Below, one piece after another: positions 1 through 9,189 of a stretch of DNA of 21,832 nt. Within the stretch, counting starts at the first letter, position 1. Each line of letters begins with the position of its first letter. The stretch is from a virus. The stretch lies in IMG/VR virus record IMGVR_UViG_3300025132_000359, positions 1 through 21,832 of that record; one strand, 5' to 3'. The notes beneath the pieces are model-generated. The model did not search any database. It was not told the DNA's origin and worked only from the letters and a program-made list of their open reading frames with translations. Made by a program: the position numbers and the translations under genes.

Positions 1-142
1 ATAATAAAATATTCCTTGTAGTCCTTCCTTTGTCTGCTTCGTAAGCTTTAAAATTCTTAGTAATTAATTCTTCCTTTAACTTTCTAGCTTCATTTTCATC
101 ATTAATTCTGGCTCTATTTATAAAAGCGTCAGGACTGGACAT
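1..142 (-). CDS. hypothetical protein, partial (runs off the left edge)
   Basis: An open frame starts with ATG at 142 and stays open leftward to the window edge, giving 47 residues that begin MSSPDAFINRARINDENEAR. The visible part is hydrophilic and rich in Lys and Glu, and looks helical. It starts 28 nt after the stop of the upstream leftward gene and continues the leftward series. I see no clear Shine-Dalgarno sequence. The C-terminus lies outside the window. I do not recognise a family. Confidence 0.55.
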   Translation of the reverse strand, partial: MSSPDAFINRARINDENEARKLKEELITKNFKAYEADKGRTTRNILL

Positions 143-7217: not shown

Positions 7218-7246
7218 ATATATTACAAGTTATTTATTATTGACAA
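7218..7246 (-). promoter_or_regulatory. candidate promoter for the leftward four-gene operon
   Basis: On the minus strand TTGTCA (7246-7241) is followed by an AT-rich TAATATATC stretch, in which a -10 box can be placed at 15-18 nt. It overlaps, back to back, the -35 box of the rightward small-RNA promoter. The shared DNA TTATTG-A-CAATAA (7237-7249) is an odd dyad. The -10 choice is uncertain. Confidence 0.35.
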
Positions 7247-7268
7247 TAAAAATACATAAGCACATAAT
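7240..7268 (+). promoter_or_regulatory. sigma70-like promoter of the small-RNA gene
   Basis: A perfect TTGACA (7240-7245) lies 17 nt before CATAAT (7263-7268, five of six matches). It is the best promoter in the window by inspection. The predicted start is near 7275. No start codon occurs between it and the terminator at 7346-7370. Confidence 0.6.
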
Positions 7269-7274
7269 CATATA

Positions 7275-7370
7275 GTAATCATTTTATTTATTCTGTTTCA
7301 TTAGGGCGAAAGCCCGTCTCGAAGCCCTCAACGGGCAAACACTTAAGCCCCCTTTAAGGGGGTTCTTTTT
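7275..7370 (+). ncRNA. candidate free-standing structured small RNA, about 96 nt
   Basis: The unit begins downstream of a near-consensus promoter, contains no ATG on its strand and ends in a Rho-independent terminator. Its core has a GNRA-capped hairpin GGGC-GAAA-GCCC (7304-7315), then a hairpin GCCC-TCAAC-GGGC (7324-7336). Alternatively GCCCGT (7312-7317) pairs with ACGGGC (7331-7336), which would exclude both hairpins, so two states are possible. The terminator stem follows. It is GC-rich in an AT-rich neighbourhood, which fits a selected RNA structure. It does not match any riboswitch or phage RNA that I can recall. Target and function are unknown. Confidence 0.55.
7346..7370 (+). terminator. 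Rho-independent terminator of the small RNA
   Basis: CCCCC-TTTAA-GGGGG (7348-7362), extended by G-T and A-T pairs, is followed by TTCTTTTT. It faces the leftward terminator at 7380-7406, so transcription from both sides stops in this 60-bp stretch. Confidence 0.8.
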
Positions 7371-7379
7371 GTGTCATAC

Positions 7380-7406
7380 AAAAAAATCCCAGACTGTGCC
7401 GGGATT
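7380..7406 (-). terminator. Rho-independent terminator of the leftward 51-aa gene
   Basis: On the minus strand the stem AATCCCGG/CTGGGATT (7406-7385, one G-T pair, loop CACAGT) is followed by a T run (the A run 7380-7386). It lies 25 nt after the stop of the gene at 7432-7587. Confidence 0.75.
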
Positions 7407-7431
7407 CTTCTCGAGGTATTCTCTATATTAT

Positions 7432-8245: not shown

Positions 8246-8273
8246 TTTACATTAAGCAAAAAATCATTATAAT
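8246..8273 (+). promoter_or_regulatory. sigma70-like promoter of the metalloprotease-like gene
   Basis: TTTACA (8246-8251), a 16-nt spacer and a perfect TATAAT (8268-8273). The predicted start is near 8280, about 30 nt before the ATG at 8310. Confidence 0.65.
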
Positions 8274-8309: not shown

Positions 8310-8837
8310 ATGAAAATTATTAAAAATACATCTGGGTATGATTCCAGAAAACTACAATCTTTATTTAGTGCAATTCATAATGAGATTGCAAAAGATGAAG
8401 GTAGATTAAAACATTGGAAAGGTTTGCAAGTTCAAATACAGGCAAAGTCATATGGATATTCTGGTAGAGCCTATCTTGGAAAAGTTTACGGTGAGGGCTG
8501 GGATATGTTTTTATCGGTTAGTCCTAGATTAACTTTAATTCAAATATCTCAATTATTTGCACATGAGCTTTATCACTCTTATGGATTTAACCATCATCAA
8601 TTTAAAAGAGATCCACTCAATGAAAAACAAATGGCTAGACTTGAAAAGAAATTTAAGATTGAAGATTTGCATAGAGTTAAAAAACCAAAAGCTAAAGTTG
8701 ATTATGTAAGATTGAGATATGAAAACGCACAAAATAAGTTAGCTGAATGGGAAAGCAAACAAAAAAGAACTAATAACTTAGTAAAGAAATGGAAGAAGAA
8801 AGTTGCGTATTATGAAAAAAAATATATTAACAAGTAA
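8310..8837 (+). CDS. zinc metalloprotease-like protein (HExxHxxGxxH), 175 aa
   Basis: Residues 85-95 read HELYHSYGFNH. This is HExxH followed by GxxH, the zinc-binding signature of metzincin-type and SprT-like peptidases. Three histidines bind the metal and Glu86 would be catalytic. The preceding helix (LTLIQISQLFAHELYHSYG) fits an active-site helix. The C-terminal part (DYVRLRYENAQNKLAEWESK, then TNNLVKKWKKKVAYYEKKY) is basic and likely a coiled coil. It lacks the four-cysteine zinc ribbon of true SprT. There is no signal peptide, so it acts in the cytoplasm or virion. It is first of a two-gene rightward unit from an operator-bearing promoter. The substrate is unknown. Coding is more AT-rich than terL downstream. 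Confidence 0.7.
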   Translation: MKIIKNTSGYDSRKLQSLFSAIHNEIAKDEGRLKHWKGLQVQIQAKSYGYSGRAYLGKVYGEGWDMFLSVSPRLTLIQISQLFAHELYHSYGFNHHQFKRDPLNEKQMARLEKKFKIEDLHRVKKPKAKVDYVRLRYENAQNKLAEWESKQKRTNNLVKKWKKKVAYYEKKYINK

Positions 8838-8854: not shown

Positions 8855-9142
8855 ATGAGTAAACTAATAAAAAAAGATGATATCGAGAATATGGCCATTG
8901 AATGGTATAAAAATAAAGTTAAGATAGATAAATTAAAAATTGAAAATGATAAAAGGGCGGATCAGTTAAAAGCTTATTCATTAAAATATAATAATATACT
9001 TGTAGAAAACAAATGCCAAATAATCGATAGTAAATATTCTAGTTTTGATAGTAAGGCATTAAAAATTGATTACCCAAAAATATATGCAAAATATTATAGT
9101 TCTAAACCTATAAAAAGAATATTAATACATAAAGCTAAATAA
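8855..9142 (+). CDS. small hypothetical protein, 95 aa, Gp157/nuclease-inhibitor-like tail suspected
   Basis: ATG 8855 follows an ATGAGGA box. The N-terminal two thirds are a Lys/Glu-rich helix (WYKNKVKIDKLKIENDKRAD) suited to a coiled coil. The C-terminus SSFDSKALKIDYPKIYAKYY, then SSKPIKRI, resembles from memory the 'FDSKxxKxDxPxxYxxY.K.s..RRF' tail of many small phage proteins linked to recombination or host-nuclease functions. That link is tentative. It is co-transcribed with the metalloprotease-like gene and ends 19 nt before a strong terminator. Confidence 0.65.
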   Translation: MSKLIKKDDIENMAIEWYKNKVKIDKLKIENDKRADQLKAYSLKYNNILVENKCQIIDSKYSSFDSKALKIDYPKIYAKYYSSKPIKRILIHKAK

Positions 9143-9160: not shown

Positions 9161-9189
9161 ACGCCCCTTAATCAAGGGGCGTTTTTTTT
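9161..9189 (+). terminator. Rho-independent terminator of the two-gene rightward unit
   Basis: CGCCCCTT-AATC-AAGGGGCG (9162-9181), extended by one A-T pair, is followed by eight T. It isolates the accessory unit from the packaging genes. Confidence 0.9.

Follow-up and report, generated by a model that had tools for sequence, protein, structure and literature searches.

A previously unlisted small RNA family of marine phages with two segments predicted to pair at ribosome binding sites

Phage-encoded small RNAs (sRNAs) that act by base pairing form a recognised group, with DicF, PreS, OOP, sar and C4 as listed examples (PMC12197685). Among bacterial sRNAs, the alpha-r8 members SisA–D of Caulobacter have an anti-Shine-Dalgarno signature and, in single-stranded form, the 10-mer UUUCCUCCCU (PMC12559287). 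In the AT-rich SAR11 system, structured RNA candidates of Candidatus Pelagibacter ubique are GC-rich and intergenic (PMC2704228). Our literature search turned up no report of a regulatory RNA in pelagiphages. Here we consider an element at 7240–7370 (+) of the IMG/VR record IMGVR_UViG_3300025132_000359, whose positions 1–21,832 constitute the window, the whole stretch of 21,832 nucleotides (nt) analysed, to which all coordinates refer. The gene content, with a TerL 73.8% identical to that of Pelagibacter phage HTVC023P, marks the window as an HTVC023P-like pelagiphage or a close relative. On the sequence comparisons below, the element belongs to a real and previously unlisted RNA family of marine phages; that its members are independently transcribed sRNAs of about 75–130 nt acting in trans by base pairing stands, in our judgment, at an even chance.

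The family comprises 16 distinct versions in about 23 IMG/VR contigs, sharing the layout 5′-UUUCAUU–P1–RYCUCRA–P2–short linker–terminator, in which P1 and P2 are hairpins. Among 80 viral contigs fetched by TerL, blastn and nhmmer located the element in L005, L011 and L012; alignment of these first relatives exposed an invariant UUUCAUUAGG, and a string search with it reached much more divergent members (L009, L017–L020, L023, L028–L031). DNA-pattern scans of all viral contigs, independent of TerL, gave L089, L097, L105, L119, L138, L144, L216 and L224. A covariance model of the 5′ domain matched 24 of 96 loci (1.07 Mb), every one already known, and 74 further loci fetched via the nuclease-like neighbour gene yielded no new type, only extra contigs of known types such as the L012-like L325. 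The RNA was not found in the examined stretches of HTVC023P, HTVC027P and 023Pt_psg01, and is absent from the near relative L010 (TerL 94%); an exact 24-mer had zero matches in viral contigs, and blastn of phage records gave no convincing match. A pattern scan of bacterial and archaeal genomes returned just six matches, which we take as chance because the promoter–P1–P2–terminator layout was not recognised in them, and a loose descriptor scan returned mostly noise. As far as seen, the family is restricted to one clade of marine phages.

Its most conserved parts, overlooked in the original prediction, are the two segments flanking P1, which stay fixed while stem and terminator sequences vary. 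Conservation and covariation were judged on a hand alignment of 15 distinct members, every string verified in its own contig. Positions 2–7 of UUUCAUU are constant in 15/15, the sole change being U-to-C at position 1, and the CUC of segment 2 is likewise invariant (15/15). P1 pairs 1–7 are canonical throughout, and P2 pairs vary among GC, CG, UA and GU with one non-canonical cell. By this alignment the stems covary, changing in sequence while pairing is kept; compensatory changes, which the original prediction had named as the sign to look for, occur in both hairpins among the relatives. Shuffled P1 segments give a flush stem with p of 0.0002–0.02 in each case; the combined value of 4e-11 is not a strict probability, since some P1 forms are related and not fully independent. 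Terminators occur in all members, with stem sequences unrelated to one another. Two variants, L012 and L325, have no P1 and keep UUUCAUUAGGCCUC, with UUUCAUU retained also in L012. The minimum free energy of the window RNA is −28.4, against −20.4 for shuffled sequence (z = −2.7), and z-scores of members run from −2.7 to −5.4. A window value of just −2.7 could, taken singly, reflect chance hairpins and a terminator in an intergenic spacer, but 16 distinct versions conserve the element and show compensatory changes, which refutes that explanation, and we give it next to no credence.

Table 1. Predicted features of the element and associated sites
Feature	Position	Strand	Details
sRNA promoter TTGACA-17-CATAAT	7240–7268	+	−35 TTGACA 7240–7245, 17-nt spacer, −10 CATAAT 7263–7268
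Expected transcript start (~7275) and variable leader	7275–7295	+	Inferred from distance to −10
Conserved segment 1, UUUCAUU	7296–7302	+	Complementary to AAUGAAA (start codon context); kept across family
Hairpin P1, GGGC-GAAA-GCCC	7304–7315	+	Folding, compensatory changes, shuffle test
P1 pair types in the family, pairs 1–7			GC/AU/GU; GC/GU; GC/AU; CG/UA/AU/GC (pair 4); AU/GC; UA/CG/AU; AU/CG
Conserved segment 2, GUCUCGA (family RYCUCRA)	7316–7322	+	Can pair with GAGGU/GAGGC/GAGAC
Hairpin P2, GCCC-UCAAC-GGGC	7324–7336	+	Folding and hand alignment
Intrinsic terminator, U-rich tail	7346–7370	+	Stem 7346–7364, tail CUUUUU to 7370
Convergent terminator AATCCC..GGGATT + T7, outside the RNA	7380–7422	−	Preceded on − strand by conserved GAATACCTCGAGAA
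Second intergenic element, other contigs	L010 7879, 8508, 9072; L031 5898; L105 1485; L119 2848−; L340 6481
Second intergenic element, continued	L341 6653; L012 2378; L005 547; L216 1962−

In the window, direct reading recovers much of what the original prediction had put forward: the promoter motif, an expected transcript of about 96 nt free of ATG from ~7275 to the terminator, and a strong terminator. The GNRA hairpin and the second hairpin are borne out by sequence and folding, P2 being joined to the terminator by AAACACUUA, and the genes are indeed divergent upstream (7168 and 7035, −) and convergent downstream (8142 and 7587, −). The promoter scores 11/12, joint top among 21 promoter-like sites in 5 kb; sites of that score turn up 0.32 times per 2 kb of shuffled sequence. 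Promoter-like sites scoring 9 to 11 of 12 lie 7–27 nt upstream of UUUCAUU in 16/16 members; they are strong in the window, L009, L097 and L011, take the form TAGACA-17-TATGTT/TATGCT in the C15 subclade, and are individually weak in some members; in several, shuffled sequence equals the score in 5–15% of trials. The C15 subclade (L017, L023, L028, L029, L105, L119, L138, L144) also has a conserved GGACUGAAAWGGA leader, whose potential pairing with UUUCA and GUCU may sequester both segments. For L009 and L097, the predicted start would place UUUCAUU at the extreme 5′ end, behind a leader of only about 1 nt.

Members occur in HTVC023P-like phages, where they sit between TerL and either a nuclease-like gene (cluster C0) or TerS; this interval is rich in variable accessory genes. 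The preceding gene is C15 in one subclade, C61 in L005/L012 and C0 in L031, with none in the window, and in L009, L097 and L089 the RNA lies behind C46 on the opposite strand. Because the orientation relative to TerL varies among members, the preceding genes differ and a promoter-like site is always present, the RNA appears to be a free-standing sRNA gene rather than one gene's leader. The picture is that of a phage sRNA with its own putative promoter and intrinsic terminator and no coding sequence, predicted to be transcribed without help from a neighbour, as originally proposed; the promoter-like sites and varied gene context of the relatives support this.

This context also bears on two other readings. 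One is a leader acting in cis, either an attenuator or a riboswitch, with the terminator governing expression of a gene downstream. It would fit a structured RNA that runs straight into an intrinsic terminator, but is improbable given that the next genes are convergent in the window, L005, L011, L012, L009 and L216, that orientation to TerL is variable, that no Rfam riboswitch was found, and that the next + gene (8310) is preceded at 8246 by an 11/12 promoter-like site of its own. Nor is the alternative stem conserved. The original prediction had envisaged switching hairpins, with a competing stem GCCCGU (7312–7317)/ACGGGC (7331–7336); this can be drawn, but at −9.5 versus −15.3 kcal/mol for P1 plus P2 it is much weaker, at a cost of ~6 kcal/mol, and on hand reading of the alignment L009, L011 and L031 offer no equivalent complementarity. 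It is limited to the window and its closest relatives because GCCC/GGGC pairs are common to P1 and P2 there, and the switching proposal falls with it. Conserved mutually exclusive folds accompanied by a co-directional downstream gene, as expected of a riboswitch or attenuator, were not found. The recurrence of the RNA in the same place in every member found, from the TerS/nuclease region to TerL, would suit a packaging-related RNA or DNA site. We regard this as highly improbable: the RNA is missing from the close relative L010 and from HTVC023P/HTVC027P, it is inverted in L009, L089 and L097, the interval around it is crowded with variable accessory genes, and packaging RNA is, to our knowledge, known only from phi29-type motors.

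Were the family to act in trans by base pairing, RYCUC (ACCUC or GUCUC) would pair with Shine-Dalgarno sequences of the GAGGU or GAGGC type and UUUCAUU with the start codon region of AAUGAAA gene starts. Together the two segments would cover the ribosome binding site, with P1 facing the spacer of the messenger RNA (mRNA), and translation of the bound mRNA would therefore be blocked. Stability, and possibly an Hfq site, would come from P2 together with the U-tailed terminator. Pairing, repression and any Hfq dependence are predictions here, and host mRNAs would be as probable targets as phage mRNAs. Several features are consistent with such pairing. Substitutions in segment 2 (AC to GU, G to A) are transitions that preserve wobble pairing with GAGGU/UGAGGU, the exception being A to C in L011. 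The UUUCAUUAGGCCUC of P1-less L012/L325 reads as a contiguous anti-ribosome-binding-site sequence, in L012 the antisense of GAGG-CCU-AAUGAAA. In several phages the accessory genes near the RNA show AACAAC..GAGGU..AUG leaders, and the C26 gene start (GAGGU..AAUGAAA) gives predicted duplexes of −18.5 (G001) and −18.4 (L097) kcal/mol, strong in these two only.

Other results weigh against this proposal. When duplex energies were computed for gene starts in the genomes of the phages themselves, no target common to members emerged, and starts near the RNA were barely better than those elsewhere (p 0.05). Nor do Shine-Dalgarno sequences at orthologous gene starts change in step with the AC/GU change in segment 2. 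AUGAAA and GAGG are both frequent around gene starts, so complementarity of the segments is cheap. For the C15 subclade, partial pairing of UUUCA and GUCU with a GGACUGAAA further upstream is predicted. The covariation count, too, was no higher than in shuffles when a model-fitted alignment with four fixed columns was used; since the stems slide and differ in length and phase, a kind of variation beyond the reach of such a count, the covariation claim rests on the hand alignment.

The want of a common mRNA target is among the reasons to entertain, tentatively, a free-standing non-coding RNA that, instead of repressing by antisense pairing, acts via a protein or serves as a host-RNA decoy, whether a sponge or a mimic of the anti-Shine-Dalgarno end of 16S ribosomal RNA. 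The two constant segments around a hairpin could form a protein-binding motif, and phage sponge RNAs are known in AgvB and AsxR (PMC12197685). Such a role sits less easily with the match of both segments to gene-start complements and with the AC/GU alternation in segment 2, which is as expected for wobble-tolerant pairing. We are doubtful of a generic version of base pairing, in which Shine-Dalgarno and AUGAAA segments joined by a hairpin would recognise ribosome binding sites at large, simultaneously repressing many mRNAs, whether of the host or of early phage genes, as SAR11-type bacteria are infected. Dimerisation through a palindromic CUCGAG was considered and rejected, the window, L005 and L011 being without the palindrome.

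Several neighbouring elements deserve mention. A GAATACCTCGAGAA-hairpin-T7 element like that of the window ends the convergent transcript also in L005, L011, L012, L216 and L325, and ACCTCGAG within it matches segment 2 of the L009 sRNA. The promoter-like site directly ahead of the rightward genes beginning at 8310 reads TTTACA-16-TATAAT (8246–8273, +; 11/12), and a strong terminator-like hairpin, ACGCCCC..GGGGCGT with T7–8, lies at 9161–9182 (+) between the open reading frame 8855–9142 and TerL. A second intergenic element, with a consensus of about GGTAGTCTAGTA-N5-AAATTGAAATATCGCAAATAAGGAGCT, occurs in up to three copies per phage, usually 30–110 nt upstream of accessory genes in the same interval; a promoter, a recombination site and an RNA are candidate identities. 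It was not found in the window.

The family thus offers a candidate backed by covariance, in which a promoter accompanies two segments likely to pair, and it comes with natural variants that lack P1 or alternate between ACCUC and GUCUC; whether phage control in SAR11 includes an RNA layer can therefore be tested directly. Rfam includes C4 and DicF among others. In keeping with the original prediction, which could match the RNA to no known riboswitch or phage RNA, the window and five relatives matched no Rfam family at gathering or permissive thresholds, and a search for transfer and transfer-messenger RNAs found none. The best permissive match with biological sense was suhB/mmgR (RF00519, alpha-r8) at 22.2 bits (E 0.013); against a gathering score of 41, membership was rejected. 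The 10-mer UUUCCUCCCU is absent between hairpin and terminator of the window RNA, and CCUCCC occurs there in no member; with that 10-mer missing, the window RNA is not an alpha-r8 member. Whereas the alphaproteobacterial alpha-r8 RNAs hold their 10-mer between hairpin and terminator, the phage-borne RNA has two conserved segments flanking the first of two hairpins, and by analogy it may still work like the alpha-r8 sRNAs. The Candidatus Pelagibacter ubique candidates resemble it as GC-rich intergenic RNAs of an AT-rich SAR11 system, but they are host RNAs, and the main text describing them makes no mention of phage (PMC2704228). DicF, PreS, OOP, sar and C4 are likewise small, phage-encoded and mostly trans-acting; they have no sequence relation to the window RNA, whose host clade and genome place differ and whose function is predicted, and we regard them as analogues. 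DicF blocks the ftsZ ribosome binding site, the very mechanism proposed for this family, which would then be a new family of a known kind, the phage-encoded sRNA.
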